This document shows positions 7,632 through 26,810 of a DNA stretch of 42,613 bases, in pieces. Both the position numbers and the translations under genes were made by a program. The notes beneath the pieces are model-generated. The model saw only the letters and a program-made list of their open reading frames with translations. It did no database searches and was not told the DNA's origin. This DNA comes from Bacteroidota bacterium. Its GTDB lineage: Bacteria > Bacteroidota > Bacteroidia > Chitinophagales > Chitinophagaceae. Within the stretch, counting starts at the first letter, position 1, and every line of letters starts with the position of its first letter. Where the stretch lies: the NCBI GenBank assembly GCA_018267545.1, contig JAFDYG010000331.1:1-42613 (forward strand), given 5' to 3'.

Positions 7632-10619
7632 TTATTGCATTACGAGTAACCAACCCTTTCCTTTCTGTACCGGAATTCCCTCACTTAAAGAAAACTCCCG
7701 CCCACCCTGAAAATTCTTCACCTCCGGCGCCACCACCTTCACCTTCGTAGAATCCAACCCCAATCCCTTCCAATCGACAACCAGCTTCACCGTCGTATCC
7801 GAAGGCGCCCAGCTCGCCACCGCCACCAATACCTTCCCCTCCTTCTTATATACCGTCGCCAGCACATCCGCCCTATCCGTCTTCACCGGACAAGAAGGAC
7901 TCCAATAACCAATCATCTTAGTTCCCTGCAGACCGAACTCATCCCATAGCTTCCAGATCGGCCTCGGATCCGCATTCGCCGTCCAGGGCATCCGGTTCGT
8001 CATCCCATAGATCATCCCCCTCCACGGATTCCCTCCCCCCTCCAGCATCTCCCCCATCAGACCAAACGGAATCCCGCTCACCTCCGTCAAAAAGAACCCG
8101 GGGTCCCCCTTCTCATAGTCGAAGTACTCCCCGAACCAGAGGCGGTTAAGATAAGGAAAATGCTCCATGTAAAGATTGGCACTATTATTAAACCCATCAT
8201 TCTTATTATACTGATTCGCCGAGTGCAGATCAATAATACCAGGATGCCCATCACTGGTCAGCACCCGCTTGACCCGTTTCATCGTCGTCCGGTCGAACGC
8301 CACGTCATCCAAATAGATCCCATCGATACCCACATTCTGCACCAGCCAGTTCATCCCTTCCACATAGTAATTGTGCCAGCGGCTCAATCCGCTGTTGATC
8401 AGCGCCGCATCCTTGATCTCAGGGACGAACCACGCCGGAATATAATTATCCCCCACATGCTCCTGTAGCCAGCTAAAGCCCCCGCCCTTCCCGGGAGAAT
8501 AAATTTCATCGCCCAAACTCCGCAGCGCAAATAATTCATACGCCCGGTCAGACAATTCCCTCACGGTATTGTAAATCTTAACCTTCAATCCCTTCTCATG
8601 CGCAGAATCGATATACCCCTTCATCCTCTTCCATTCTATAAACGGATAATTGATCCAGGGGTTGATCGGCGTAGCATGATGGATATTGACCACCGTGGCG
8701 CCCGTAGCCCGGATGCTATCGATACTATTATATCGGTGATAAAAACGCGTCGCCCACTGCGCGTCCGTATTCAACGTATGAAAAGGCGTAATCAGCAGCG
8801 TAAAGTTATAGTACAGCGTATCCCCCTTCTTCATCGACCGGGGACCGCTATAGTTGTTGGCCAGCATCGACCTCCCCTTGATCCCGATGTCCATTCCTCC
8901 CTTCCCCCCATTCGCCCAGGACAATGGCTCCACCAGCGGCTTCTGTAAATAAAAGTTGGTGTTCAGCGGACGCACATATCGCTCGTCTCTGAGCGAATAC
9001 TGCAAACCCGCATTCACCGCCCCAATCCAACCCCCATCCTGATTCTTATGCGCTACATCCCATTTCCAATGATACATACTGTCCGGCCGCTCTCCCCCTT
9101 TCTGCCCAAAACCCATCCAATAGCGCGCTGCCTCCTTCTGAAAAGGGATATGCATGACAATATCTTTAAAATCCAGGTCCTGCAAAGCCACCACCGCCAC
9201 CGTAAATTTCAGGAATCCATCGAACTCCAACCTCCCCGTCACATCCATCTGCAGCTCCGCCGCCGTACTACTCGCCTTCCAGCTAACAGTCCCGGCTGAC
9301 CGCTCTGTATAAACCACCCCTCCATTTTTCAGCCGGATATCCTTCCCATCCGACAGCTTCGTAAAATGAAAGTGAATATTTTCTGCTAATAAATTATTCG
9401 GCTGCGTCCCCACCTCCGTCATCTCCGGCGTAAAGAAGGTCGTAATCTGCTCCGGGAACCCCTGCCCATTCAGCTGCACCCGCCTCCCTAGCAAATAAAC
9501 CATCGTATCGCCTTCTATCCTCAGCGGCGTATACGGCGCAACCACCGTATTCTCCTGCGCCAGCGTAGAGTTCAACCACTTGAGCCGCCCCATCTTCTCC
9601 GGCGCATCCCCAACAGCCACCCTACTCCCCACTGTAATCGCCACCTGCACCCTCCTCTCAATCCCTCCAGCCTTCACGCTCGCCACCCCACTATACATCC
9701 CCGGTACCGCATCTTTTGGAACATCCACTCCACACCACAAAGCCTGCACCTTCCCCTGACGAACCCCCACTTTCTTCTCAAACACCCTCCCATCATATCC
9801 CACGCCTCCCGTATTAAAACAAACACCCGTAATTACCTTCCCCCTCTCGCTATTCAAAGGCCCAACCGTCACCCGCACATCTTCCAGATCACGCAGCGCA
9901 TACACCCCCAATTGATACGTAAAAAACTCCCCCCTGTCCGCCGAACCCTGCAGCACAGACCTCAGCCCCCTCGCCACCCACCGGTACGGCAGCTCATCTT
10001 CCATCCTTATCGAATGTTCCCGGTCCTCCGGAAACAACAAAAAAGCTTCTCCCTTATGCTTCTCCCTTAGCGCCCCCACCTCCTTTTCCGTCGCCGCCAC
10101 CTCCATCGGATACCTCGTATTGAACGTATCCACCGCCTCGAACCTCACCACCGAAGCATTCACCGCCACCCCCTTCCCATACCCCGCCACCGTATCCGCC
10201 CCCCAATACATCCCCTTCGGATAATTACTCCTCCCCTCGTTATGATACGGTAAATAGTAAACATAATACTCCCCCTTCCCCGAAACCGCCTCCCAATACA
10301 ACTCCCCCACCTCCTTATCCAACCTTCCCCTCCCAACCTTCTCCACCTTCCTCCCCGTCTGCCCATCCTGCACAATAATCCGCTTCGCATCCACACCCCC
10401 ATCCCTCCTCCGCCACGGCGCCACCACATGCGCCACCGCCCCCGGCCCATTAAACCGCACCACCATCCGCTGATTCCCCAGCGAATCCGCATTCCAACAA
10501 TTCGTACAAGAAGTATAAGGTATTTCCTGGGCGCCCACGCCCTTCAAAGATTTTTCCTGGGCCTCAGCGCCCATTACCAACAAAGAGAGAGTAATAAATA
10601 AGCAGTAAAATCTAAGCAT
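7632..10619 (-). CDS. Large exported GH123-like (DUF6067/DUF4091-type) protein
   Basis: A 995-residue protein from the ATG at 10619, which gives a signal peptide ([21 protein letters not shown]); the TTG at 10640 is rejected. The N-terminal half is beta-rich. The second half looks like a (beta/alpha)8 glycosidase: [14 protein letters not shown] near residue 770 has the strand-end Asp pair expected at an active site, followed by a conserved segment around [23 protein letters not shown] associate this with the DUF6067/DUF4091 families related to GH123 (beta-N-acetylgalactosaminidase), but the substrate cannot be read from sequence. The FAH enzyme lies 11 nt downstream. The minus strand is very G-rich here. 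Confidence 0.7.
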
Positions 10620-10636
10620 GCCTGAAGATAAGAAAA

Positions 10637-10849
10637 TCAATCCTTATCAATCAAGCCCAATTCCTTTAGAGATTTTATAACACTAGGCTGCCGAAACAGC
10701 TCTTTTGCCTTCTCCAATTTGTCATAAGGAGCATTATTAGGATCGATATGACTGTGCACCTCCACCCATTGCCTTTCAAGCTCCCTAATTTCGCTCTTAG
10801 GCGCTTTCTTATTTTTCTTAATTCTGATATTTTTTTTCCTTACAATCAC
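10637..10849 (-). CDS. Small basic hypothetical protein (70 aa), partner of DUF6934-like gene
   Basis: A 70-codon frame starting at GTG (10849), 9 nt after the stop of the DUF6934-like gene; it has no internal ATG. A GAGGAG run overlaps the GTG, too close for a classic ribosome binding site, so coupling to the upstream gene is likely. The N-terminus is strongly basic (RKKNIRIKKNKKAPK). The rest is charged helix (EIRELERQWVEVHSHIDPNN, then YDKLEKAKELF) ending LGLIDKD. It could be an antitoxin-like or accessory protein. No family is recognised. It is read in the same direction as the large exported protein that follows 17 nt later. Confidence 0.55.
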   Translation of the reverse strand: MIVRKKNIRIKKNKKAPKSEIRELERQWVEVHSHIDPNNAPYDKLEKAKELFRQPSVIKSLKELGLIDKD

Positions 10850-10858
10850 TCCTCGAAA

Positions 10859-11308
10859 TTACTTTCTTTTTACCAGAAATCCTAAATATCCCCCACTCAT
10901 CGTCACATCAAACGGCACGAACTTCACTCCATCTTCTTCTTCCATAGCACCATACACCCAAAACGATTCGCTAAAGCTTGAATAGTAATTCTTTAAAACT
11001 CTTCCATATAATTTTGTACGCTCATTGGTACTCCCCTGAAAATAAATAAAAGCTTCAGGATGAAGCCAGGTATAGTGCTTTACTATATCAACAACTGTTG
11101 CCAAAACTTTAATAATATCGCCATTATCCGAAACCCTTCCATAATCTATTGAGCCATCCGGCAATAAATCTCCTAAACCTAGATTCATTGCACCAAAGTC
11201 CTCTATCAGTGTAAACACCACTACTTTCTCGACTCTCGTCTTACCTACACTAACGAAATCATACCGGGTGGCAGCAACTTGATTATATTCATAAGGATTA
11301 CGAGACAT
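10859..11308 (-). CDS. DUF6934-like protein
   Basis: The ATG at 11308 gives 149 residues (MSRNPYEYNQVAATRYDF...). ATGs further upstream (11326 and beyond) would add a hydrophobic segment and run towards the M14 gene's terminator. The core has a beta-strand start (YDFVSVGKTRVEKVVVFTLI), then MNLGLGDLLPDGSIDYGRVSDNGDIIKVLATV, then an IYFQGST-ERTKLYGR segment and a terminal strand (GGYLGFLVKRK). This matches my memory of small Bacteroidota proteins classed as DUF6934, whose function is unknown. A 70-codon gene follows after 9 nt, the layout of a two-gene module such as toxin-antitoxin. That role is inferred from arrangement only. Confidence 0.68.
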   Translation of the reverse strand: MSRNPYEYNQVAATRYDFVSVGKTRVEKVVVFTLIEDFGAMNLGLGDLLPDGSIDYGRVSDNGDIIKVLATVVDIVKHYTWLHPEAFIYFQGSTNERTKLYGRVLKNYYSSFSESFWVYGAMEEEDGVKFVPFDVTMSGGYLGFLVKRK

Positions 11309-11360
11309 CACTAAATTAATGAGCATAAAAATAGCCAAATAAATTAGCAACACAGGTCGC

Positions 11361-11387
11361 AAAAAAGGCCATGCAAAACGCATGACC
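11361..11387 (-). terminator. Rho-independent terminator after M14 peptidase gene
   Basis: On the minus strand GGTCATGC and GCATGGCC (11387-11380 with 11374-11367) form an 8-bp stem with one G-U pair and a 5-nt loop, followed by TTTTTT (11366-11361). It lies 26 nt beyond the stop of the M14 peptidase gene and closes the SusC-SusD-M14 transcript. Confidence 0.78.
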
Positions 11388-11412
11388 CTTTCCCAAAAAA
11401 GAAAAGAAAAAT

Positions 11413-14121
11413 CTATTCCCCCCCTCCACCAAATCCTCCCCCCAGCAAATTCCCAAAAAACACCGCATTCAAAAACAATCGATTCGTCCCCAACCAATAA
11501 CTCCGATACGTCGGATCATCCGCAAACAACACCACCGTCCCAGCACCCTCCGCCGACGTCACGATCGCCGCCGAATTATTCACCCGCGCAATATTCTCCT
11601 TCGACGCATATCCATTGATAAACGAATTCCCCGTATACCTCGCCACCGTCGCATACTTATTCCTCGACGGCACCAAAATCGTCGGCCCATTCTTATTGAT
11701 AAAAAGCCTCCTATCATTCACCCCAAACCCAATCGGACTCGTAATATCCAAATCCGAAACAAAGATCGCCCCATTGATCCGCTTCGCTCCCTCCACATCC
11801 TGCTGCCTCGCAAAATCAAACCGCTCGACCCCGCCATCACCCCGGCGCACCCGCGCCGTATCCGCCCCCACACGCGGCGCCTCCACTCCAGCCCGGCCAC
11901 CCGCCGAAGCCTCCACACGCCCCCCAGCCCCAGCCGGCCCACTCACACCACCCCCTCCCGCAGAAACCTCCCCCCTACCCGCAAACGGCAACCCCTCCAA
12001 CAACCCCGCATGAGCAATCTCCTGCCTCACTGCCCAGGCCGTAGCCCCCTGAAACGTAATCAACGTCCCCCCATCATTCACCCACTCCTTGATCTTCCCC
12101 ACCACCGCCTTATCCCAATCCGCATAATTTCCCCCCACGAGCACCAGCGTATTATATTTACGAAGCGAAGCCCTTCCCCATGCCCCCACATCGATCTTCA
12201 CCAGCGGCAGCCCCAAGTGCTGATTCAACAAGAACCAAACCTGCCCCGCCTCTTCCGAATTCACTCCCTGACCAAAAGCAATCGCCACCTCCGGTTTCCT
12301 CACCGACCGTATATTGCTGCTCCCCAAATCGATCCCCGCCGCATTAAAACCCGTCCCCACACCCGCAATCTCAATCCCAAAGCGACCCGATACCCCCTGC
12401 AGCACCTTATACAGCGAGTCCGCACCAATCGACTGACCCGCCACCGGAATCACCAAACTCCCATAGCTATACGCCCGCGTCCCGCCCCCGCTCAAATTAG
12501 CGGTAAATGGCTTAAACGAAGTCTTCACCAATACCCCCTGCCGAAGCAATTCATACAACAACCCCGACGCATTATACTCCGACCACGAAGCCAGGTAAGC
12601 ATACGAAGACACTCCGCCAACCACACGGCCAGAAGCCGCCCGCACCGCCGTCACCAGCTCCCCCTTCCCAAATCCAGGCGTAACCACCTTCGCATACTGC
12701 AACCCATACGCATGTATCACCGACCAACCCGTATTATCGTAAAAAATGCTATCCTTCAAAAGGTTCTCCTCAAATAAAGAATGGATAATCCGAAAGTTCG
12801 CCTGCTCCGACGGAACCACAAAAGCTTTACCCTTCTCGAACCGCTTCCCATCTACCGTCACCGACTCCGGCAGCTCATACACCTTCACCCGATGCCGAAG
12901 CAACAGATCCAGAAACCGCGCCGTCAACGTTTCATCACGAGAATCCCCAAAAACAAAAGCCTTCGCCGCATTGGCATGCGCCTGCTCCAACGCCGATTTG
13001 AAGAAATCTTTCTGCAGCTTGAATAGCCCCGCCTTCTCGGCAACGGCGCCACGCACCGTAGCCAGCCCCGTCACCAGGTGATTCCTGATCGTAAACGAAA
13101 ACGTAAGAATCCCATTCGTCGTCTCGCGGGCAATCCCCCCCGAGCTGGCCTCCTCGAAAGTCGCCCCTACCCCGCCATAAAATTTCGGATAGGTACTCCC
13201 ATAGATCGGAGAAAGATTATCATAGTTTTCCTTTGTAAAATAAAGCGACCCGATATCGTCCAACGCCTTCGCCTGGTACTTCGCCAACACCGCATTGAAG
13301 TCGTACATCTCCTGCGGAATGATCGGGCTCTGATGACTCTTCGGCGTCGGCTCGAAGTAATAGGTCGCATTCGCGCCCTGCTCGTGAAAGTCGATCTGAA
13401 CATTGGGATACCACTGATGAAACCACTCCAATCGATTCTTACTCTCCACCTGCGTCACACTCAGCCAATCCCGGTTCAGATTGTTCAGATAGTGATTGCT
13501 CCTTCCACCCGGCCAGATCTCCAGGTGCTCCTTGTCATTCCCATCCGCTACCGGAGGCCAGCTCTTATAAGAGTTGTACCAATTCGCCGCCCGGTCCCTT
13601 CCATCCGGGTTCAACGACGGATCGATAAATACAACCGCCTCATTCAACCATTTACGGGTTTCTTCACTCTGACTCGCCACCAGATAATAGGCCGTCAGCA
13701 TGCTTACCTCCCCGCTCGACGTCTCGTTCCCATGCACGCTATACCCCAATAGCACCACTACCGGCGCCCCCGAAGAAACCAACGGCTTCGATGGATCCAC
13801 AAGCGTCGCATGTTCCTGCCGGATAGCCTCCAGGTGACTGTAATTCTCCGTAGAAGTAATCGTCGCAATCAGCTGCGGCCGCTCCTCATACGTCTTCCCG
13901 ATGATCTGCACATGGATCTTCGGCGAAACCCTCGCCAGCTCCTTGAAATAAGCGATGATCTCGTCATGCCGCGTATAATGCGACCCAACCGGGTATCCCA
14001 AAAACTGTTCAGGCGTCGGAATAGCAGGGTCGAAAGTCCCCTTTCCGGCAAAGTAATAATCGGTTTGAGCGCTCGCCGTCCCAAACGCCAATAAAACAAA
14101 AAACAAAAATCTGTATTGCAT
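11413..14121 (-). CDS. M14-family zinc carboxypeptidase, exported, with C-terminal GATase-like domain
   Basis: A 902-residue metallopeptidase from the ATG at 14121 (MQYRFLFFVLLAFGTASAQ signal peptide); a longer frame from 14184 would run into SusD. The M14 zinc site is H130 and E133 (YSVHGNETSSGE) with H246 (QIDFHEQGA). A Glu in GATFEEASSGG is a candidate for the catalytic base. The second half contains a class-I glutamine-amidotransferase-like fold (TLVLVGGNYADWD..., WVNDGGTLITFQGATAW), usual in large Bacteroidota M14 proteins. A Gly/Ala/Arg-rich insertion of about 55 residues (around 11824-11988) is atypical. It follows SusD by 13 nt, so its products are probably the importer's cargo. Confidence 0.88.
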   Translation of the reverse strand: MQYRFLFFVLLAFGTASAQTDYYFAGKGTFDPAIPTPEQFLGYPVGSHYTRHDEIIAYFKELARVSPKIHVQIIGKTYEERPQLIATITSTENYSHLEAIRQEHATLVDPSKPLVSSGAPVVVLLGYSVHGNETSSGEVSMLTAYYLVASQSEETRKWLNEAVVFIDPSLNPDGRDRAANWYNSYKSWPPVADGNDKEHLEIWPGGRSNHYLNNLNRDWLSVTQVESKNRLEWFHQWYPNVQIDFHEQGANATYYFEPTPKSHQSPIIPQEMYDFNAVLAKYQAKALDDIGSLYFTKENYDNLSPIYGSTYPKFYGGVGATFEEASSGGIARETTNGILTFSFTIRNHLVTGLATVRGAVAEKAGLFKLQKDFFKSALEQAHANAAKAFVFGDSRDETLTARFLDLLLRHRVKVYELPESVTVDGKRFEKGKAFVVPSEQANFRIIHSLFEENLLKDSIFYDNTGWSVIHAYGLQYAKVVTPGFGKGELVTAVRAASGRVVGGVSSYAYLASWSEYNASGLLYELLRQGVLVKTSFKPFTANLSGGGTRAYSYGSLVIPVAGQSIGADSLYKVLQGVSGRFGIEIAGVGTGFNAAGIDLGSSNIRSVRKPEVAIAFGQGVNSEEAGQVWFLLNQHLGLPLVKIDVGAWGRASLRKYNTLVLVGGNYADWDKAVVGKIKEWVNDGGTLITFQGATAWAVRQEIAHAGLLEGLPFAGRGEVSAGGGGVSGPAGAGGRVEASAGGRAGVEAPRVGADTARVRRGDGGVERFDFARQQDVEGAKRINGAIFVSDLDITSPIGFGVNDRRLFINKNGPTILVPSRNKYATVARYTGNSFINGYASKENIARVNNSAAIVTSAEGAGTVVLFADDPTYRSYWLGTNRLFLNAVFFGNLLGGGFGGGGE

Positions 14122-14134
14122 GTAGTAGGTATTA

Positions 14135-15466
14135 TTAATATCCAGGATTATTTTTTCCTTCCAGATCAGGGTCGGACAGCACATCCGACAATGGCAACGG
14201 AAACAGCCACGCGTTGCTATTCGTCAGCCCCAGCACCACCCCCGCCCGCTTCGTCCGCACCAGGTCGAACCATCGATGCGCCTCGAAAGCAAACTCCACG
14301 CTGTTCTCATCTTCTATCGCCTGCAGCACATCCGAAGCGCTCACCGCCGCCGAAGGTCCCACATCCGCCCGCGCACGTACCGCATTCAGATCACCAAGCG
14401 CCAGGGCCAGCTTACCCTGCTGTGCCCGGGCCTCCGCCCGTATCAAATACAATTCCGCAATCCGGATCACATACGACGGGTCCGTACTCGTAGCGCTCGT
14501 ATTATACAACACGCCATACACCGAAGAACCCGAACCCGCAATCAACGCCTTCCGGCTCCCACCCACCGCAGGGTCGTTCAGCCGTGAAACAATCGACGCC
14601 GAAGGCTTCAACGTATACTGCCCGCCCGCCGAGCTCGGATACCATAGATTCCAGTAGCTGTTCCGGTCATTGGCCGAAAATGTCAATTCAAAGACCGACT
14701 CCGCACTCAAAAACGGCGAAGTAAAAAACGAAGAATAAGGCCGGACCAGGCTGTACTTCGCATTCGCAATAACAGCAGAAGCATAAATTTCCGCCGAGTC
14801 CCAATTCCCCCGGTACAAATCCAGCCGCGCATGCAGCGCCCTTGCAGCGCTCTTCTGCGCCCTGTTCCGCGTCGATGCGTCCTCCGGCAACAGCCCCTCC
14901 GCAATATTCAAATCCGCCTGCACCTGCTTATACGTATCCTCCAGCGAGCTCCGCTTTACCCCCTTCAACCCGCTCAAATCCTTCGTCGGAGCCAGCTGTA
15001 GCTGCACGCCGCCCCAGCCCCGGCCCAGGTCGAAATATCCCAAAGCCCTGATAAAATAAGCTTCCCCCAGTATTGTACTCTTCTCCGCAGCAGTCAGCTG
15101 CGGGTCATTCACCCCCGGCACATAAGCGATTACCGAGTTAGCCGCATTGATGGCCTTATAGATTCCCTGATAGGCCGCCACCGTCGTCACATTATCCGCC
15201 GGTATCGCATTTTGGTCCAGCTGTAAATACTGACTCAGCGTTCCGTTAAAGATCACATTGTCCGCCGGCATCACACCCAGCGTCGGGTAATTCCCTGCAT
15301 AATAGTTCTGCACCCCGTCATAAGCGCCCAGGATCGCCGCCCGCGCCGTCCCCACATCCGTGATCGACTGTCCCGCCGGCAGCGCATTATTCGGCGTCTC
15401 GGTTAAAAACTTCTTGCACGATGAAAGCAACACTCCTAACAACAAAAACTGATATATCGGTTTCAT
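14135..15466 (-). CDS. SusD/RagB-family nutrient-binding outer-membrane lipoprotein
   Basis: A 443-residue surface lipoprotein that acts as the lid of a TonB-dependent SusC pore. A lipobox (LLGVLLSSCKKF) gives lipidation at about C17. The TPR-like SusD fold is evident from AARALHARLDLYRGNWDSAEIYA, the RIAELYLIRAEARAQQGKLA region and the C-terminal DENSVEFAFEAHRWFDLVRT motif, which is very characteristic. The gene starts 11 nt after SusC stops, and the M14 peptidase follows 13 nt later. The pair looks like a RagAB-type importer; the neighbouring peptidase favours peptides over glycans as cargo. Confidence 0.95.
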   Translation of the reverse strand: MKPIYQFLLLGVLLSSCKKFLTETPNNALPAGQSITDVGTARAAILGAYDGVQNYYAGNYPTLGVMPADNVIFNGTLSQYLQLDQNAIPADNVTTVAAYQGIYKAINAANSVIAYVPGVNDPQLTAAEKSTILGEAYFIRALGYFDLGRGWGGVQLQLAPTKDLSGLKGVKRSSLEDTYKQVQADLNIAEGLLPEDASTRNRAQKSAARALHARLDLYRGNWDSAEIYASAVIANAKYSLVRPYSSFFTSPFLSAESVFELTFSANDRNSYWNLWYPSSAGGQYTLKPSASIVSRLNDPAVGGSRKALIAGSGSSVYGVLYNTSATSTDPSYVIRIAELYLIRAEARAQQGKLALALGDLNAVRARADVGPSAAVSASDVLQAIEDENSVEFAFEAHRWFDLVRTKRAGVVLGLTNSNAWLFPLPLSDVLSDPDLEGKNNPGY

Positions 15467-15477
15467 AATTTCAAAAT

Positions 15478-18400
15478 TTAAAAGCTAACATTCAACCCGG
15501 CTTGTATCGTACGCGGCTGCGGCACAGTCGCCCAGTCATATCCCGCCGTATTCTGGTTATTCCCCTGCGAGCTGACCTCGGGATCCAATCCCCGGTAGCT
15601 GGTGATCGTCCATAGATTGGTCGCCTGCACATACGCCCTCACCCCGGAAAGCCGCCACCGCCGTACCAGCGAAGAAGGAATCGTATACCCAAGCGTAATC
15701 GTCTTCAGCCGGAGAAAGGAACCATCGTCCAGGTACCGGCTGCTCAAACTCGCTACATTCCCGCCGTAGTTGTTGGCCGCCCCATCATTCTGCGTAGGAT
15801 TACTGCTGAAAGTCGTTATACGAGGCACGTCAGTCTTATCTCCCGGCTTCTGCCAGCGCTCCAGCTGACGAGGTACAAACCCAATGTTAGCCTGCGTCCC
15901 ACCATGCACCATGAAGAATTCATTCATGTTCATGATCTTGTTCCCCTGCTGGAAATAAAAGAAGAACCCAAAGTCGAAAGCACGGTACGAAAGCGTATTC
16001 GTCAGCCCACCCGTATACTTCGGCAAGGCATTCCCCACGATCTGCCGATCCGCCGCCGTGATCGTTCCGCTCTTGTCCACATCCTCATAAACCGCATTCC
16101 CGGTTTGGTCGTCGACGTATAGCTGGCGGTACAACCAGAACGAATTCACCGCGTATCCCTTCCTGAGTATCGAGATATTCCTCCCCGACGCACCCTGCGC
16201 AATATCCGAAGCCAGCTTCACGATCTTGTTCCGGTTGAAGGAGATATTGAAGTCCGACGTCCAGCGAAAATCCGCGCCGTCAAAGTTCACCGAGTGCAGC
16301 GCAACCTCCACTCCTTTGTTGCTCACCGCCCCATAGTTCTGCAAATAGGTGGTAAAGCCGGAGCGCGAAGGCACCGGTACATTCAGCAACAGGTCATAGG
16401 TATGCTTGTCATAGTAATCGACCGTTACGCTCAGCCTGCGCTTCAGGATCGTAAACTCCGTCCCCACATCCACCTGACGCGTCGTCTCCCAGGTCAGGTC
16501 CGCATTGGCCAGCTGACTCGGCGAAGTCCCCGGACTGTTCAGATAGTTCGCCCCTCCGGCGGAAAGCCCAAGCGCCGCATACGACCCAATCCCATTTTGA
16601 TTGCCGGACAAACCCGCACTCACCCGAAATTTCAGCTCATCGAAGAACCCCCACCGCTGAATAAACTCCTCCTGCCCCGCTCTCCACGTCAATCCCCCCG
16701 ACGGAAAATATCCCCACCGGTTGTTCGCACCGAACTTCGAAGAGCCATCCGCCCTCAAGCTCGCATCCAGGGTGTATTTATTGTCGTAGGTATAGCTGGC
16801 CTTTCCAAAGAAAGACACCAGCTTGGATACCGCAGAAGAGGACGAACCCGTCGTCGTCGCAGCGGCAGAAATAGCCTTGATGCTATTGGCGGGAAATCCC
16901 TGCCCCGTCGCAGTAGTAAGCTTGTTCACCACGGAATTTAGTGTATTGCCCACCAGCGCATTGATCGAGTGCTTACCCGAAGATTTGACATAAGTCAATA
17001 CCTGCTCGTTCGTATACACGATATTCTTCGTCACATACGAAGCCGCCGACCCATTCGTCGCAATCCCCGCACTGATCAGCGTGTTATTATAGTTGTTCTC
17101 ATACTCGTCATTGTTGTCCACGCTCCAGCTGCTCCGAAGTTTCAAACCCGGCAGGAACGTATATTCCCCAAAGACATTCCCGATGGTCCGCCAGCCTACC
17201 GCGTTATTATCTAAATTCTTGATAAGCGCAATATGATTGTCGAAGCTGCCATACCTGGCGTAAGTACCGTTAGGATTGAAAATCGGCAGATACGACCGGA
17301 CAAACAACGCCGAATTGATCACCCCCTGCGGGTTATTGTCATTGCTCGAAAGATTCCGGTACGACCGCGAAATATTGATGCTCGTCCCCACCTTCAGCTG
17401 CGAGCTGATGTAATTGTCATAGTTGAACCGGACCGTATATCGCTCATAGTTCGAAGGCCGCACTACCGACTCCTGCTTGAAGTAACCCACTCCCGTATAA
17501 TACGTGCTCTTGTCCGTCCCCCCTTGCACCGCCAGCTCATAGTTGGACGTAGCCCCCGTCCGGAACAAATCCTTGAACCGGTCATAAGTCGGCAGCGTGT
17601 CCGGATTGGCAAACGGCAGCGTCACCAACGAAGGGTCCTGCCCACGATCGATCGCCGAATTCCGGACCGATTCATTAGCCAGCAACCCCGTCTGCGGCCC
17701 ATTGGTGACCTTGAATTGACGAATCGCATTCGACCAACCGTGATACGCATTCAGCGTCACCCTTGGATGCGCATTCAACCGGCCCCGCTTGGTCGTAATC
17801 AGGATCACCCCATTGGCCCCCAGCGAGCCGTAAATAGCCGTCGCATTCGCATCCTTCAGGATCGTAATATTCTCGATATCCGAAGGATTGATATCCGCCA
17901 GCGGGTTCGAAGGCTGCTGCTGGCCGATAGAAGTCTGTATCGGATCAGCGCTGCTCACAAATACCCCATCGACCACATATAAAGGATCCACCGAAGCATT
18001 GATAGAGTTGTTGCCCCGCACACGAAACGTTATACCTCCGCCCGGCACGCCCGAATTCGCCAGCACCTGTACCCCCGTAGCCTTGCCTTGCAGCAATTGA
18101 TTGAAACCCGCAGCCGGCGTGCTCTTGATCGCATCCCCGCTCACACTCGTGATCGAACCCGCGACAAATTTCCGGTTCTGCGTGCTATACCCCGTAACGA
18201 TCACATCCTCCAGCTGACGGTTCTCCTTCTTCAATAATACGGAAGCCGCTTCGCGAGCCCCCACATACTGCGTCTCATAACCGGCGTAGCTGATCACAAG
18301 TATCTTTTCACCCGGTCGCAGCACTATCTTAAAAGACCCGTCCGAAGCCGTCGTCGTCCCACGCAAGCCCCCCTTTACAGCGACGCTCACTCCGCCAAGA

Positions 18401-18549
18401 CCGCCTTCGTCGGTGTAAACTTTTCCACTAACGGGCGTTTCCTGCGAAAACACCGGTAAACAATAGATAAATAAGACAAAAAGAGTAAGTATAATTCGCA
18501 GTCTCCCACGCATGCGGGCCCCTACCCGCCACAAATTAGCAGTGTCCAT
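15478..18549 (-). CDS. SusC/RagA-family TonB-dependent outer-membrane transporter
   Basis: A 1023-residue TonB-linked receptor. After a signal peptide ([18 protein letters not shown]) there is a carboxypeptidase-like regulatory domain (about residues 40-115, [21 protein letters not shown]) and then the SusC plug signature ([73 protein letters not shown]). The 22-strand barrel ends in a terminal Phe (LNVSF), as expected for BAM insertion. There is no N-terminal STN domain, so no FecIR-type sigma control is expected. ATG at 18549; an ATG at 18513 is possible. A good promoter with a dyad sits about 47 nt upstream. Confidence 0.96.
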   Translation of the reverse strand: [1023 protein letters not shown]

Positions 18550-18577
18550 AAATCAGCGATTTGGTTGTTTTGTATTA

Positions 18578-18596
18578 GTCCACTAAATTAGTAGAC
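18578..18596. promoter_or_regulatory. Dyad at the susC transcription start, candidate operator
   Basis: A 19-nt near-perfect palindrome GTCCACTAAATTAGTAGAC with a single mismatched pair. Its core ACTAA-A-TTAGT is perfect (18582-18592). It begins at the last base of the susC -7 box and covers the expected start of transcription, a position typical for a repressor operator. The symmetry is seen; the regulator is unknown. Confidence 0.45.
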
Positions 18597-18627
18597 AAAT
18601 ATATTAACTAACCATTGACACTACAAA
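18596..18627 (-). promoter_or_regulatory. Bacteroidota-type promoter of the susC operon
   Basis: On the minus strand -33 TTTG (18627-18624), a 20-nt spacer, then -7 TATATTTG (18603-18596): an exact match to the Bacteroidota consensus. The -7 box ends 47 nt before the susC ATG at 18549, which fits a leader of roughly 40 nt. Confidence 0.82.
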
Positions 18628-18656
18628 AAAATACTTACAAAATCTTCGTTTTCGAG

Positions 18657-18674
18657 TATATTTGTAGTTACTAC
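18657..18674 (+). promoter_or_regulatory. -7 promoter box and adjoining dyad for the ATP-grasp operon
   Basis: The plus strand has a perfect -7 box TATATTTG (18657-18664) 46 nt before the ATP-grasp ATG. No TTTG is found about 20 nt upstream, so the -33 element is weak. The dyad GTAGT-T-ACTAC (18664-18674) starts at the last base of the box, mirroring the dyad on the susC side. Confidence 0.6.
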
Positions 18675-18710
18675 ACCCATCTTACATAGTAAATAACAAT
18701 AGCAAACAAA

Positions 18711-19691
18711 ATGTCACCCATCGCCATTTATCACGAACACCCTGATTGGTTCAAACCCCTCTTCGAAGAGCTCAACAACAGAGGTATTCCGTTTACCCGT
18801 TTCAATCCTGCTCAACATCAATTTGCAATCGAAGAGCCGAAGCCTAACTTCTCCCTCTTCTTCAACCGAATGAGCCCCTCCGCCTATCTCCGTGATGGCA
18901 TCCAGGGTATGTTCTATACACTATATTATTTGAAACACCTCGAGACCCTCGGCGTACCCGTCGTCAACGGCTACAAAGCCTGGACCTTCGAAACCTCCAA
19001 GGCGCTCCAGCTGCAGCTGCTGCAATCTCTCGGCATCAAATATCCAAAGGCGCACGTCGTCAACCACCCTTCGCAGCTCATCGCAGCCGCAGAAGGACTC
19101 CGCTTCCCCGTCGTCGTAAAGGCTAACATCGGAGGCAGTGGAGCAGGCATCACCAAATACCACAGCATCGAAGACCTGAAAGCCGCAATCGCAGAAGGCA
19201 ACCTCGACTTCGGAGTAGACCATACCGCCCTCCTTCAGGAATTTATCCCTGCACGCGATGGCTATATCACCCGCGTGGAAACCCTCGGCGGCAAATATCT
19301 CTACGCCATCCGCGTCTACCTCACCGGCGAAACCTTCAACCTCTGCCCGGCCGATATCTGCCAGACCAATACCGGCGTAGAGCTCGTCCGCAACGCCTGC
19401 GCCCTCGACGCCCCCAAAAACGGTCTCAAAGTAGAAGGCTACACGCCCCCTCCCGCCGTCATCAAGGCCATCGAAACCATCGTCCAGCAGTCCGGCATCG
19501 ACGTCGGCGGCATCGAATACATCGTAGACGACCGCGACGGCGAGATTTACTACTATGACGTAAACGCCCTCTCCAACTTCGTCGCCGACGCCGTCAACGT
19601 CATCGGCTTCAACCCCCATCACAAGCTCGTGGACTACCTGGAACAAAGAGCCGGCATAAAAGCCGCAAGCTCCAGGCTCGTCCACGCGTAA
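18711..19691 (+). CDS. ATP-grasp ligase (RimK-like)
   Basis: A 326-residue ATP-grasp enzyme. Such enzymes activate a carboxylate as acyl-phosphate and join it to an amine or other nucleophile. The N-terminal pre-ATP-grasp domain is followed by ATP-binding lysines K97 (FETSKALQ) and K137 (FPVVVKANIGGSGAG). The C-terminal metal site has E269 (VGGIEY) with D283 and N285 (YYYDVNALSNFV). No carrier-protein or other fused domain. It is first in a tight three-gene set: a luciferase-like monooxygenase starts 60 nt later, then the tandem cyanophycinase-like gene. Substrates cannot be named; an amino-acid or peptide ligation is the simplest inference. Confidence 0.85.
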   Translation: MSPIAIYHEHPDWFKPLFEELNNRGIPFTRFNPAQHQFAIEEPKPNFSLFFNRMSPSAYLRDGIQGMFYTLYYLKHLETLGVPVVNGYKAWTFETSKALQLQLLQSLGIKYPKAHVVNHPSQLIAAAEGLRFPVVVKANIGGSGAGITKYHSIEDLKAAIAEGNLDFGVDHTALLQEFIPARDGYITRVETLGGKYLYAIRVYLTGETFNLCPADICQTNTGVELVRNACALDAPKNGLKVEGYTPPPAVIKAIETIVQQSGIDVGGIEYIVDDRDGEIYYYDVNALSNFVADAVNVIGFNPHHKLVDYLEQRAGIKAASSRLVHA

Positions 19692-19704
19692 ACAACCCAA
19701 ACAC

Positions 19705-19724
19705 CCCCGGGGGCGGCCCCGGGG
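19705..19724 (+). other. Strong GC hairpin between ATP-grasp and LLM genes
   Basis: CCCCGGGG (19705-19712), a 4-nt GCGG loop, then CCCCGGGG (19717-19724) make a perfect 8-bp all-GC stem, 13 nt after the ATP-grasp stop and 27 nt before the next ATG. There is no U-tract, so it is not a standard terminator. It could protect a processed mRNA end or tune expression between the genes. Confidence 0.6.
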
Positions 19725-19751
19725 CCACCATAAACACCCAATAACAGCATT

Positions 19752-20783
19752 ATGAGATACGGATACTGGATGCCCGTCTTCGGCGGCTGGCTTCGCAACG
19801 TAGAAGATGAAAACATGCCCACCTCCTGGGACTACGTAAAAAAACTCGCCATCCGCAGCGAAGAGCTCGGCTTCGACCTCTCCCTCATCGCCGAACTTTA
19901 TCTAAACGACATCAAAGGCATCGAAGCCCCATCCCTCGACGCCTGGTCCACAGCCGCCGCCCTGGCCGCCGTCACCCACAAACAGGAGCTGATGGTAGCC
20001 GTCCGGCCCACCTTCCATAATCCCGCCCAGCTCGCCAAACAAGCCGCCAACATCGACCACATCAGCGGAGGCCGCCTGTCCCTCAACGTCGTCTCCTCCT
20101 GGTGGCGCGACGAGGCCACCAAATACGGCATCGGCTTCGAACAGCACGACGACCGCTACGCCCGCACCGCAGAGTGGCTCACCGTCCTCAACGGCGTATG
20201 GAACGAAAACGGCTTTAACTTCGACGGTAAATACTATAAAGTCTCCAACAACACGCTCCAGCCCAAACCTATCTCCAAACCCCGCCCGGCCATTTACGCC
20301 GGCGGCGAATCCGATGCAGCCAAAGACCTCATTTCCTCTACCTGCGACGGATACGTCATGCACGGCGACACCCCCGAAACCATCGGGAAACGTATCCGCG
20401 ACATGAAAGAAAGAAGAGAAAAGAAAGGACTCCCCCCCATGACATACGGAGTAGCCGCATACAGCATCATCCGCAGCAGCGACGCCGAAACAAAAAAAGA
20501 GCTCGAGCGCATCACCAACGTCCAGCCCGGAAGCCCCGGCTATAACAACTACCAGCAATGGCTCTCCGGCACCCAGCTCGAACAAAAAGTCTCCCTCGAA
20601 GACTACTCCGTCTCCAACCGCGGCCTCCGCAGCGGCCTCATCGGCAGTCCCGCACAGGTAGAAGACCGTATCGCCCAGTTCGAAGCCGCCGGCGTCGACT
20701 TCTTCCTCCTGCAATGCAGCCCCCAGCTCGAAGAAATGGAACGCTTCGCAGAAACGATCATAAAAAAAGAAACATACGCCTAA
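19752..20783 (+). CDS. LLM-class flavin-dependent monooxygenase
   Basis: A 343-residue bacterial luciferase-like (LLM) TIM-barrel protein using reduced flavin and oxygen. It begins MRYGYWMPVFGGWLRN and contains family segments HISGGRLSLNVVSSWWRDEA, RTAEWLTVLNGVWNE, and the PAIYAGGESDAAKDLISSTCDGYV strand. The C-terminal IGSPAQVEDRIAQFEAAGVDFFLLQ segment is also typical. It most resembles SsuD/SfnG-type sulfonate/sulfone monooxygenases, but LLM substrates are very varied. No flavin reductase is adjacent. The next gene begins 4 nt after its stop, so the two are co-translated. Its link with an ATP-grasp ligase suggests oxidation of a conjugated or amino-acid-derived substrate (inference). Confidence 0.88.
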   Translation: MRYGYWMPVFGGWLRNVEDENMPTSWDYVKKLAIRSEELGFDLSLIAELYLNDIKGIEAPSLDAWSTAAALAAVTHKQELMVAVRPTFHNPAQLAKQAANIDHISGGRLSLNVVSSWWRDEATKYGIGFEQHDDRYARTAEWLTVLNGVWNENGFNFDGKYYKVSNNTLQPKPISKPRPAIYAGGESDAAKDLISSTCDGYVMHGDTPETIGKRIRDMKERREKKGLPPMTYGVAAYSIIRSSDAETKKELERITNVQPGSPGYNNYQQWLSGTQLEQKVSLEDYSVSNRGLRSGLIGSPAQVEDRIAQFEAAGVDFFLLQCSPQLEEMERFAETIIKKETYA

Positions 20784-20787
20784 GAGC

Positions 20788-22680
20788 ATGAGAAAACATA
20801 TCCTCCCCCGCATAGCCCTTGCAAGCATAACCTTTGGTTATGCTTTTCTTCTTTTAATGCCTGCTTCTTCATTTGCACAACGCACCCCCATCACCATCAC
20901 CCCCTCCCCCACCCGCCACGGCCCCGAACACGGCTCCCTCATCATCATCGGAGGCGGCGGCAGCACCCCCGAAATCTGGCAGAAATTCACCGAGCTCGCC
21001 GGCGGCAAGGACAAAGCCCGTATCGTCTTCGTCACCAACGGCACCCCCGGCGACGACACCAGCAGCCACAGCTACGCAAACACCATCAAACGCCAGACAG
21101 GCATCCAGCACATCACCATCCTCAACGCCCACAGCCTCGCCGAAGCCAACAGCGAGAAATTCATCGAACCCCTCAAAACCGCTACCGGCGTCTTCTTCGA
21201 CGGCGGCCGCCAATGGCGCATCGCCGACGCTTACCTCAATACTCTTACCCACAAAGCCTTTCAGGACGTCCTGAACCGCGGCGGCGTCATCATCGGCAGT
21301 TCCGCCGGCGCCACCATCCAGGGCTCCTTCCTCTGGCGCGGCGACACCCGTAACAATAATATTCTCGTCGGCGACCACACCCAGGGCCTCGCCTTCCTCC
21401 GCAACTCCGTCATCGACCAGCACCTCCTGGCCCGCAATCGCCAGTTCGACATGGTGGAGTTTATAAAAAATACCCCCGAGCTCATCGGCATCGGCCTCGA
21501 CCAGGCCACCGCCATCCTCGTTCAAAAAGATACCCTCCAGGTCATCGGTAAAGCCTACGTCCTCATCTACGACTACAAAAACATAAAAACCGACAGCCCC
21601 TTCTTTATGCTAAGCGAAGGCCAGCGCTATGACCTGAAAGAAAGAAAAATGCTATCCCCCGTAAAAATCACACCCGCAACCGCACAAAACCCAGCAACCC
21701 CGCAAAACCCCGCCAACGCAACCGCACAAACCACAACCCCACCAGCACAAACACAAAACTCCGAATCAGGCCCTCAACCAAAGGCCTACGTCAACACCCC
21801 CATCGAAGTCCACCCCTCCACCACCCTCCACGGCCCCGAACACGGCTCCCTCCTCATCATCGGAGGCAACGTCGGCTCCACCGCCTCCGTCTGGAACAAG
21901 TTCACCGAGCTCGCCGGAGGCAAGGATAAAGCCAAAATCGTCGTCGTCACCGCCGCATCCGGCGACTCCGCAGCCTTCGACCAAAAAGACGTGGAAGAAA
22001 TAAAGAAACAAACCGGCATCTCCAACGTCACCCTCCTCCACACAAACGACCTAAAAGAAGCCAACAGCGAAACCTTCATAGCCCCGATAAAACAAGCTAC
22101 CGGCGTCTATTTCATCGGCGGCCGCCAATGGCGCATCGCCGACTCCTACCTCAACACCCTCACCCACCAGGCCTTCCAGGACGTCCTCAACCGCGGAGGC
22201 GTCATCGCCGGCAGCTCCGCCGGCGCCTCCATCCAGGGCTCCTTCCTCTGGCGCGGTGACACCAAAGGCGCAGAAACCCTCGTCGGCGACCATACCCAAG
22301 GCCTCGCCTTCCTCAAAAATTCAGTAATAGACCAGCACCTGCTAAAAAGAAACCGCCAATTCGACCTCGCCCGCTTCATCCACGCCGCCCCCGACCTCAT
22401 CGGCATCGGTCTCGACGAAGCCACCGCCATCCTCGTACAAGGCGATACCCTTCAGGTCATCGGCAAATCCTACGTCGCCATCTACGACCACAAGAATGAC
22501 CAACCCTTCTTCTTCCTAAGCGAAGGCCAGAAATACGATCTAAAAAACTATAAAACTATCCAGCCGCCCCGACGCAACGCGGCCGACGGCGATTTCACCC
22601 CGCCATCCCCGCTGAACGCGGCTGGGCCCCATGTCACCCCGCCATCCCCGCTGAACGCGGCCGATAAAGAAAGAGAGTAA
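20788..22680 (+). CDS. Exported tandem cyanophycinase-like (peptidase S51) protein
   Basis: A 630-residue protein with a signal peptide (FLLLMPASSFAQ) and two homologous S51 domains, about 45-290 and 345-590, joined by a Pro/Thr/Gln linker. Cyanophycinase cleaves beta-Asp-Arg polymer. Each domain has the nucleophile elbow GSSAGA (S172, S477) and a His 40 residues later (H212, H517). The Glu expected 27 residues after the His is present in domain 2 (E544, LDEATA) but is Gln in domain 1 (Q239, LDQATA), so domain 1 may be inactive. GGRQ replaces the usual GGDQ, and an Arg expected after DQH..R.R is Asp, so cyanophycin itself is an uncertain substrate. The C-terminus carries a duplicated TPPSPLNAA motif. 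Confidence 0.85.
   Translation: MRKHILPRIALASITFGYAFLLLMPASSFAQRTPITITPSPTRHGPEHGSLIIIGGGGSTPEIWQKFTELAGGKDKARIVFVTNGTPGDDTSSHSYANTIKRQTGIQHITILNAHSLAEANSEKFIEPLKTATGVFFDGGRQWRIADAYLNTLTHKAFQDVLNRGGVIIGSSAGATIQGSFLWRGDTRNNNILVGDHTQGLAFLRNSVIDQHLLARNRQFDMVEFIKNTPELIGIGLDQATAILVQKDTLQVIGKAYVLIYDYKNIKTDSPFFMLSEGQRYDLKERKMLSPVKITPATAQNPATPQNPANATAQTTTPPAQTQNSESGPQPKAYVNTPIEVHPSTTLHGPEHGSLLIIGGNVGSTASVWNKFTELAGGKDKAKIVVVTAASGDSAAFDQKDVEEIKKQTGISNVTLLHTNDLKEANSETFIAPIKQATGVYFIGGRQWRIADSYLNTLTHQAFQDVLNRGGVIAGSSAGASIQGSFLWRGDTKGAETLVGDHTQGLAFLKNSVIDQHLLKRNRQFDLARFIHAAPDLIGIGLDEATAILVQGDTLQVIGKSYVAIYDHKNDQPFFFLSEGQKYDLKNYKTIQPPRRNAADGDFTPPSPLNAAGPHVTPPSPLNAADKERE
22595..22661. repeat. 28-nt perfect direct repeat at the convergent gene ends
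   Basis: An identical 28-nt unit, beginning TCACCCCGCCATCCCC, occurs at 22595-22622 and 22634-22661 (39-nt period). It encodes TPPSPLNAA twice in the tandem S51 protein. The second copy supplies the stop codon and the last residues of the convergent O-antigen-ligase-like gene. Confidence 0.85.
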
Positions 22681-23884
22681 AAAAGCAGCTAAAAAAGAAG
22701 ATTCCCTTATTCGTATCTAATACATTCTCCGAAAAAGAAACAAAAGCCACCACCACCACCACCGTACCCAAAAAAATATCCCTGCGCCTCACCGCAGCCC
22801 CCGCACCCGCACCCAAAACCGCCAGGTACCACAAACCCGCAGCCACCCCTCCATTGAGCACATAGCTCAAATATTGATTGTGCGCATTCAGCTCGTGCTT
22901 ATACGAGATCGTCAAATCATGCGCATAGTATTCTTCCTTCAGCTTCGGAACCTCCGCCCCTACCCCATACCCCGTCAACGGCCTCGCCCGTATTAGCTCC
23001 CATGCACACCCCCACCGAACCATCCTCGGCTCCGCATCGCCTTCTCCCCCCCTTACACGCTGCATATCGTACTTCAGCTGCACCAGGTAACGCGTGTTCA
23101 AATTATCGTTCATCGTCACCAGCGTCACCGCCATCACGCTCACCAGCAAAAAGCCCCCCAACGCCAGCCAGCGAGTCCTCCCTTTCAACAGCATCCACGG
23201 AACCAGCACATTCAACACCACCAGAAACGCCAGAAAAACCGCCCTCGAAGCCAGCTGCAACATGGCCGCCATCAGCACCAGCACAATCAGCCAATACCCC
23301 CACCGCGCCGCGGACCCGCCGCCATCCTTCACAGCCATCGAAATAAAAACTACCATTGCAACCGCCACATACATCGAAAGATACGTAGCATGCAAATCGA
23401 GCGGGGCGCTAAAGGCATGATTCAAATATTCCGGCGCAAACAAAGCCCCGAACCCCAACCCATTCTCATATATCGAAACAAATGCGCAGCCGTACAAATA
23501 CACCACCGTCCCAAAACAAGACCACGCAAACGCCTTCAACAAACGCTCCCGAACCGTCGTCCAATCCAATTGAGAAAACCAGGCGATCAACGGAAATAAT
23601 AAAATGGCCAGCTGCTTTTCCAGCTGCTTACCCGCATCCCCAAAATTCGGCGCATAAATCGCCGACACCGCCATCAGCAAAAATAAACCCGCCACCAGCC
23701 AGCCAGCCCAACGCAAAGACCAGGGCCGGCCCTTTCCCAAATGCAGCAAGGTATGCAGCAATAACCCGATCAACGATAGCTCGCTATAAATCCGGTCCAA
23801 AGGCAGCGTAACGAGAAAAACCAAAAGCAGGTAATAGCTGATCTTACCCGCGGAAGTATCTTCTATATAAAATATTTCTTTCAT
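22634..23884 (-). CDS. O-antigen ligase / polymerase-like membrane protein (Wzy_C type)
   Basis: A 416-residue polytopic membrane protein with about ten hydrophobic segments. The large periplasmic loop contains the family signature W-IRARPLTGYGVGAEVPKLKEEYY followed by HELNAHNQYLSYVLNGG, where the Arg and His residues are functionally important in WaaL/Wzy proteins. It ligates or polymerises polyprenol-linked sugar repeats. It is last in a four-gene operon with a sugar-phosphate transferase and two glycosyltransferases, and its start overlaps the previous gene by 41 nt. Its 3' end overlaps the convergent S51 gene by 47 nt inside a direct repeat. Confidence 0.85.
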   Translation of the reverse strand: MKEIFYIEDTSAGKISYYLLLVFLVTLPLDRIYSELSLIGLLLHTLLHLGKGRPWSLRWAGWLVAGLFLLMAVSAIYAPNFGDAGKQLEKQLAILLFPLIAWFSQLDWTTVRERLLKAFAWSCFGTVVYLYGCAFVSIYENGLGFGALFAPEYLNHAFSAPLDLHATYLSMYVAVAMVVFISMAVKDGGGSAARWGYWLIVLVLMAAMLQLASRAVFLAFLVVLNVLVPWMLLKGRTRWLALGGFLLVSVMAVTLVTMNDNLNTRYLVQLKYDMQRVRGGEGDAEPRMVRWGCAWELIRARPLTGYGVGAEVPKLKEEYYAHDLTISYKHELNAHNQYLSYVLNGGVAAGLWYLAVLGAGAGAAVRRRDIFLGTVVVVVAFVSFSENVLDTNKGIFFFSCFFTLFLYRPRSAGMAG

Positions 23885-26697: not shown

Positions 26698-26810
26698 CCT
26701 AAAGATCAAACGCAGCTAAAAATGCAGCGGTTGCCCCTACCCCGACAATCCACGTTTCCCCTTACCCTCCCCCAAGCAACCACTGCGAAAAATTTACCGT
26801 TTTACCTTTC

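Follow-up and report, generated by a model that had tools for sequence, protein, structure and literature searches.

In soil, a major share of the sulfur is present in organic form. The flavin monooxygenase SfnG converts dimethylsulfone to methanesulfinate. Most ligases of the ArgX, LysX, RimK, DcsG, Ddl, and GshB kind join amino acids through an acyl phosphate. SfnG has a role in the sulfur assimilation of pseudomonads and MsuD has a sulfonate-binding motif formed by W195, R225, R296, and A/S299 (PMC8234197), and in Bacillus subtilis YxeK and CmoJ cleave the C-S bond oxygenolytically once a sulfur amino acid has been N-masked (PMC9706529, PMC10863075). Here we describe a locus of a Bacteroidota bacterium of the family Chitinophagaceae (assembly GCA_018267545.1, contig JAFDYG010000331.1, positions 1 to 42,613 of the forward strand; this 42,613-nucleotide stretch is hereafter called the window), in which the genes for an ATP-grasp ligase and a luciferase-like monooxygenase (LLM) diverge from those for a SusCD importer and an M14 carboxypeptidase.

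The scavenging of organic sulfur is the most likely function of this locus, because the ATP-grasp/LLM pair adjoins the genes of an outer membrane importer and a peptidase and the control region contains a DNA site also found at sulfate assimilation genes. The locus is thus probably a sulfur-limitation operon pair dedicated to an organosulfur compound of amino acid or peptide type, and would represent an uncharacterized variant of the known salvage systems. Literature searches returned no paper describing an ATP-grasp paired with an SfnG-like LLM, and none on the palindrome described below; in the portions available, one paper on ribosomally synthesized and posttranslationally modified peptides (RiPPs) concerned RiPP classes and one on dimethylsulfide contained no mention of ATP-grasp.

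Organization of the locus

Six genes, all intact, make up the locus and are arranged in two diverging arms. The minus-strand arm comprises a SusC/RagA TonB-dependent receptor at positions 15478 to 18549 (TIGR04056, 790 bits; cut-off, 368) and an adjacent SusD-like surface lipoprotein at 14135 to 15466 (PF07980, PF14322), the two components of a SusCD outer membrane importer, followed by an M14 zinc carboxypeptidase open reading frame (ORF) at 11413 to 14184 (PF00246, 63.6 bits) with a signal peptide-like N terminus. As listed, the M14 ORF overlaps SusD; inspection by eye placed its probable start at about 14121, at an internal Met22 preceding the signal peptide-like stretch and 13 nt past the SusD stop. 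It contains the motifs HGNE at residue 151 (HxxE), DFHE at 265, and FEEAS at 343, which we take to be zinc and catalytic residues. The plus-strand arm comprises the ATP-grasp gene (18711 to 19691), the LLM gene (19752 to 20783), and a gene for an exported tandem S51 cyanophycinase-like protein (20788 to 22680), separated by exactly 60 and 4 nt. The ORF list confirmed the genes, coordinates, and gaps given by the first-pass annotation, and its divergent arms with a common regulatory region proved real.

A palindrome common with sulfate assimilation genes

The control region between SusC and ATP-grasp measures 161 nt and holds, at positions 18580 to 18594, the operator-like palindrome CCACTAAATTAGTAG, a type of site that also occurs at cys genes. 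In all seven SusC/ATP-grasp intergenic regions compared, the 15-bp palindrome CYACTAAWTTRGTAG is followed by ACAAA, which forms part of the −7 box on the SusC strand. In the window, this TAnnTTTG-type box is read at 18596 to 18603 on the minus strand, one base from the palindrome, and it was also recognized by eye in the other six regions; an inverted copy at 18657 to 18664 on the plus strand is read as the box of the ATP-grasp promoter. TAnnTTTG is presumably the −7 promoter consensus of Bacteroidota. With a scoring matrix built from the seven intergenic sites alone, 18580 to 18594 was the sole strong site of the window (22.6; next best, 10.1).

When cysH-type genes (those with a PAPS-reductase domain) were analyzed with this matrix, a site scoring at least 10, a cut-off chosen after the scores had been seen, was present within 450 bp upstream in 11 of 12 genomes (at least 12.5 in 9), versus 53 of 1184 background windows from the same loci. 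This comparison used 12 of 14 loci; the two left out were a second place in genome G358 (L254) and the locus of the window's own genome, whose contig ends at the gene (L264). In the latter genome, a site scoring 15.0 lies between a sulfite reductase and a TonB-dependent receptor (L264, 2977 to 7741). In Puia dinghuensis, an exact site is located within a sulfate assimilation cluster, before a porin and a siroheme synthase/TauE fusion; a second sulfite reductase has a site with one mismatch in front of it. Strain DXS carries a site before a hexapeptide transferase gene (CysE-like by context) and a cysteine synthase-like pyridoxal phosphate (PLP) enzyme gene. By the definition used here, namely, a palindrome common with cysH-type genes, the locus falls within a putative sulfur regulon of Chitinophagaceae.

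The exact degenerate palindrome occurred 62 times in 23 of the 33 genomes of the genus, compared with once for the reversed control. Forty-four of these sites, with 83 genes, were examined (L288 to L327 listed 84, from which one 120-aa ORF of L296 was dropped). Among the best 25 of 75 Pfam families, these genes yielded CarboxypepD_reg_2 (15), TonB plug (11), PhyH (6), PAPS reductase (4; two cysH-cysD loci), Porin_O_P (3), sigma-70 (3), FecR (3), TauE (2), siroheme synthase domain (2), and the Na/sulfate symporter family (2), most genes at the sites being without sulfur annotation. In G004, the SusC orthologue (71% identity over 463 aa) lies on a different contig from the pair, and the palindrome precedes its ORF by 20 nt.

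Genes for PhyH family dioxygenases recur at the palindrome (L055, L122, L302, L306, L309, L315, L317, and L326), with TlpA-like thiol oxidoreductases near some of them; this set is a candidate second organosulfur system. An exact palindrome also lies at a distance of about 390 nt from another partial LLM-like gene (L303, 3485 to 4099, genome G029; PF00296, 26% identity).

Upstream of the ATP-grasp gene itself, a site scoring at least 15 was found in 10 of 21 Bacteroidota loci, 7 of them being the loci on which the matrix was trained. These 21 were the window plus the 20 scored Bacteroidota loci among the 80 described below; left out were L037 (titled Beijerinckiaceae, 78% identical and perhaps misbinned; score, 2.0), L010 (G004; 6.5), a remnant in G014 (12.2), L114, L118, and L119 (all below 4), duplicated loci, and the subfamily of about 30% identity described below. 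The three remaining positives, L038 (Mucilaginibacter), L044 (Pedobacter), and L055 (CW02), are independent, since these loci lack an orthologous SusCD; they correspond to 3 of 14 such loci, versus 29 of 1737 background windows.

Distribution of the ATP-grasp/LLM pair

A scan of genome contigs yielded 126 relatives of the ATP-grasp, of which the best 80 (57 to 84% identical) were kept. According to their record titles, these loci span Bacteroidota, Planctomycetota, Gemmatimonadota, Acidobacteriota, and Armatimonadota, a few records being untyped or doubtful. An LLM homologue follows the ATP-grasp gene on the same strand in 70 of the 80 loci, within 400 nt in 68 and with a stop/start overlap of −1 or −4 nt in 18. 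Of the 10 loci without an LLM, 4 end at a contig edge, L096 has a fragment, and 5 have room for the gene yet contain none; whole-genome searches of these 5 and L096 located an LLM elsewhere in 2 (L073 and L075) and none in the other 4, some of which are metagenome-assembled genomes. A search with the LLM that was blind to the ATP-grasp gave hits in 14 of 199 Acidobacteriota genomes, with the ATP-grasp alongside in all 14 (the already known search center, T. roseus, is included, and the gap in L144 is about 550 nt). The same search in Planctomycetota recovered 1 of 246 genomes, that one being the search center. In the class of the window, 2 of 295 genomes besides its own contain the ATP-grasp (E value, 1e-40), and the LLM adjoins it in both. 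Judged from these comparisons, the ATP-grasp and LLM genes form an ancient unit of two genes.

No third gene was conserved across phyla in ORF clustering of 81 loci, in hand-listed neighbors, or in Pfam counts of 90 neighbors (best 25 of 76 families), and the neighbors tested in Acidobacteriota were not informative. Among the larger ORF clusters outside the pair, one (27 loci) consisted of out-of-frame or mixed ORFs and another (11 loci) mostly of ABC transporter ATPases, 3 or 4 of which belong to the MetQIN-type cassette described below.

ATP-grasps about 30% identical to that of the window (L117, L120, and L121) have different neighbors and were kept apart from the unit; in L121 (1298 to 5417), the gene for the 31%-identical ATP-grasp is located downstream of those for a Cys/Met PLP enzyme and for a fusion of acyltransferase and homoserine dehydrogenase. 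A PIG-L deacetylase gene adjoins the LLM in two lineages (L050, 12149 to 14409, and L118, 12336 to 13052); that of L050 is weakly BshB2-like and is accompanied by a cupin_8 gene and a palindrome of its own, and a dicarboxylate symporter lies upstream in L118. A decayed ATP-grasp/LLM remnant was seen in congener G014 (L122, 10057 to 11106), where the start of a PhyH-type dioxygenase lies 19 nt from a palindrome site.

SusCD and M14 as partners of the pair

SusCD is divergent from the pair in seven Chitinophagaceae loci (the window, L034/L177, L040, L049, L050, L051, and L054), the SusC orthologues of the six other loci being 64 to 72% identical. An M14 orthologue lies next to the pair in five of these six; the contig of L034/L177 ends before it. 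Among the 33 genomes of the genus, 7 carry the pair (an eighth, G014, has the remnant) and 3 carry an M14 orthologue (E value, 1e-180), all 3 together with the pair. By the same threshold, the pair occurs without M14 in G009, G012, G021, and G029 (G009 and G361, whose coordinates are identical, probably represent a single genome), and the pair without SusCD-M14 is found in other phyla and several congeners. The sequence data nevertheless support the view that in Chitinophagaceae both arms belong together and share the operator-like palindrome.

Beyond the M14 arm, the window contains a large GH123-type protein gene (7632 to 10640; PF19543, 1420 bits), whose orthologue adjoins the ATP-grasp gene in congeners without SusCD-M14, and a DUF6934 ORF (10859 to 11497), whose listed start overlaps the 3′ end of M14.

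Comparison of the two enzymes with known relatives

The LLM (PF00296, 191 bits; cut-off, 27.9) is predicted to be a group C flavin monooxygenase and an oxygenase dependent on reduced flavin mononucleotide (FMNH2). Its nearest curated family is SfnG (TIGR04021; PDB 8t0u), with which it shares full-length homology and a similar N-x-G-[LF]-[RK] loop; its 237 bits fall below the equivalog cut-off of 382.95, so that it was not accepted as a dimethylsulfone monooxygenase, and it further differs from SfnG in having an ATP-grasp partner and only 36% identity to plasmid genes annotated sfnG. Assignment as a classical SsuD/MsuD alkanesulfonate monooxygenase was likewise rejected, on the residues that follow; TIGR03565 gave 174 bits versus 518. 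The likeness to SsuD/MsuD is one of family and FMN-dependent class; all four sulfonate motif residues (W195, R225, R296, and A299) are replaced, by H204, A235, N289, and L292 (the last two located by alignment to L114), each of which is found in 68 to 70 of 71 aligned sequences. The loop YSVSNRGLR is present in 70 of the 71, the exception being the SsuD-type L114. The closest solved sequences are PDB 3rao, a putative luciferase-like monooxygenase (E value, 7e-122), and 8vw6, named alkanesulfonate monooxygenase (4e-101); literature searches found no functional paper for either, and a Bacillus cereus paper checked for the 3rao gene did not contain the word monooxygenase in the part available. 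The nearest characterized LLMs break C-S bonds.

The ATP-grasp, weakly RimK-like by family search, has the fold of the LysX/ArgX/RimK amide ligases together with residues that we take to bind Mg and ATP. Its predicted model (mean predicted local distance difference test score, 86.9) is closest to ArgX, LysX, and RimK, followed by DcsG, Ddl, and GshB. Identity to LysX, ArgX, and RimK in structural alignments is 17 to 22%, and the window protein differs from them in an N-terminal motif of its own, HEHPDWF. Classification as a RimK family alpha-L-glutamate ligase was discarded (TIGR00768, 64.7 bits; cut-off, 143.4).

The YxeK and CmoJ pathways resemble the locus in combining an amino acid-modifying enzyme with an LLM family monooxygenase that breaks a C-S bond, thus recovering cysteine sulfur. 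There, however, the mask is an N-acetyl group removed by deacetylation, whereas the window has an ATP-grasp ligase and no recurring deacetylase; YxeK and CmoJ are DszA homologues by sequence, whereas the window LLM is nearest to SfnG; and uptake proceeds through an ABC transporter (YxeMNO), in contrast to SusCD in the window and MetQIN-type ABC genes in four other genomes. The resemblance to N-acyl-masking salvage would thus be an analogy of logic only. No N-acetyltransferase or deacetylase of the yxe/cmo type recurs among the neighbors; these families were not sought genome-wide.

Sulfur links in other lineages

On a plasmid of Deinococcus deserti (L115, 5876 to 10023), CuyA, CuyB, a ligase, and an LLM of the same clade (57%) form a row. 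CuyA is a cysteate sulfo-lyase (535 bits; cut-off, 450) and CuyB a cysteate racemase (271 bits; cut-off, 190). The ligase has no detectable similarity to the window ATP-grasp; its relative in D. peraridilitoris (79%), annotated as an ATP-grasp, precedes the LLM without CuyAB. In Spirosoma (L114), a related ATP-grasp (54%) is clustered with two amino acid permeases, SusCD, and an SsuD-type LLM keeping W/R/R. Ligase and LLM thus occur in three combinations: both of the window type, an unrelated ATP-grasp with a window-type LLM (Deinococcus), and a window-type ATP-grasp with an SsuD-type LLM (Spirosoma). A MetQIN-type cassette of lipoprotein, permease, and ATPase, identified by PF03180 and by eye, is found close to the pair in Pedobacter (L044, 12073 to 14580), Niastella (L049, 13363 to 15908), and G014 (L122, 13132 to 15366); in an acidobacterium (L107, 7257 to 9784), it immediately precedes the pair in the same orientation. 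NlpA was found in 2 of 90 neighbors in the Pfam counts.

The S51 gene

The S51 protein matches PF03575 in two stretches and the cyanophycinase family TIGR02069 with 248 bits for both repeats together (cut-off, 126.6). Repeat 2 reads GLDEAT and keeps the Ser, His, and Glu positions, presumably the cyanophycinase triad; repeat 1 reads GLDQAT, with Gln for Glu. No S51 match (E value, 1e-5) was found in the 80 ATP-grasp loci, which cover 3 to 21 kb. In four congeners (L177/G032, L123/G009, L090, and L173/G004), the LLM is followed directly by an orthologue of the sugar transferase gene at 26068 to 26709, and the stretch 20788 to 26071, which in the window holds S51, a Wzy-type ligase, and two glycosyltransferases, is absent at that point. 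The simplest reading of this synteny is a lineage-specific insertion. S51 homologues are encoded by G004 and G032 on separate contigs. The first-pass annotation had counted S51 as a member of the system, which is not borne out; the cyanophycin and beta-aspartyl readings are therefore not supported.

Proposed role and alternatives

Under sulfur limitation, a regulator that binds the palindrome one base from the SusC −7 box would be released, SusCD would import the organosulfur compound, and the exported M14 carboxypeptidase would trim it. A MetQIN-type ABC importer, the genes for which lie near the pair in the four other genomes and not in the window, or another permease could carry it inside, where the ATP-grasp would join it to an amino acid as a mask, comparable to N-acetylation in the YxeK/CmoJ pathways. 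The FMNH2-dependent LLM, perhaps acting after the ligation, would oxygenate the carbon beside the sulfur and break the C-S bond, yielding sulfite or a thiol for CysIJ/CysK. This more specific route, which would be widespread and undescribed and in which a methionine- or cysteine-like amino acid, or a peptide, is ligated so that a dedicated LLM can cleave it, with coupling in Chitinophagaceae to a SusCD organosulfur importer under a sulfur-responsive operator, is put forward tentatively, being rather doubtful in its full form; the methionine- or cysteine-like substrate is a first guess, and the mask put on by the ATP-grasp is the weakest part of the proposal. The first-pass annotation had treated the arms as one system, which holds for SusCD, divergent in seven loci with a common palindrome, and fails for S51, with G561 and the pair-only genomes as exceptions; a reading of import, trimming, oxidation, and ligation fits. 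The sulfur regulon signal, on which the assignment of the functional field depends, was not visible to that annotation.

Several results weigh against organosulfur salvage. The LLM lacks the sulfonate motif, of the two Deinococcus plasmids, one has CuyAB beside the LLM, the MetQIN-type lipoprotein is near only 4 of 102 loci (four genomes, two phyla), and no N-acyl hydrolase or flavin reductase recurs among the neighbors, these families not having been sought specifically. G561 contains SusCD-M14 without the ATP-grasp, and its palindrome score there is 8.2. Besides the late choice of cut-off, the 11 cysH sites include two weak ones (10.2 and 10.3), and G561 misses, its 13.2 site standing one gene farther upstream, ahead of a gene for a peroxiredoxin-like protein. 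Allowing one mismatch gave 30 matches versus 8 in the control (five genomes), with 3 versus 3 in G360, and some of these sites adjoin genes without a sulfur link. Of the 21 Bacteroidota loci, 11 have no site of at least 15 at the pair, and no scored locus outside Bacteroidota exceeds 10.7. The pair is not always under the palindrome, since the site is absent there in P. dinghuensis, Segetibacter, and Rufibacter, as also in Spirosoma L114 and in L118/L119; Niastella and strain DXS retain it. Because of the missing sites, and because 7 of the 10 positives are training loci, regulation may be tied more closely to SusCD than to the pair.

The missing sites, together with the absent sulfonate motif, would suit an LLM whose substrate, like that of RutA, is an amide or amine free of sulfur, with regulon membership belonging to SusCD alone. 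We regard this as quite improbable, given that the palindrome stands at the ATP-grasp in three loci without an orthologous SusCD, that CuyAB accompany the LLM in D. deserti, that MetQIN-type genes occur in four genomes, and that Spirosoma clusters the ATP-grasp with an LLM keeping W/R/R. It is unlikely, although less so, that the pair owes its place in the sulfur regulon to the synthesis or recycling of a low-molecular-weight thiol or sulfur metabolite, the ligase building and the flavoenzyme oxidizing it, rather than to the breakdown of a sulfur source: the pair is rare, in contrast to core thiol enzymes (two other genomes of 295 in the class), it diverges from an importer and a peptidase, the D. 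deserti row points to breakdown, and neither PIG-L gene was matched (E value, 1e-15) in any other of the 102 loci.

ATP-grasp and LLM enzymes both occur in natural product pathways, and the first-pass annotation had offered as its second idea that the two make a modified peptide, which is exported and trimmed. This found no support and is very improbable: no third biosynthetic gene of at least 90 aa recurs in the 80 loci (short precursor ORFs lay outside the search), SusCD serves for import, and the palindrome is common with sulfate assimilation. Its first idea, taken with S51 as the enzyme that cleaves cyanophycin or a beta-aspartyl compound outside, followed by import, oxidation, and ligation, has in its favor the two cyanophycinase-like repeats, the second with Ser, His, and Glu in place, and the start of S51 only 4 nt past the LLM, with which it may now be cotranscribed in this strain. 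It is nonetheless the least probable of all, S51 as an ancestral part being already contradicted by the comparison of loci: none of the 80 has a match, four congeners join the LLM directly to the gene at 26068, and in G004 and G032 the homologues are elsewhere.

With organosulfur salvage as the preferred interpretation, a two-gene unit present in five phyla gains a testable sulfur salvage hypothesis, and the palindrome becomes a candidate sulfur operator of Chitinophagaceae, which may serve to list further organosulfur genes, such as those for SusCD, PhyH-type dioxygenases, and TlpA-like proteins.

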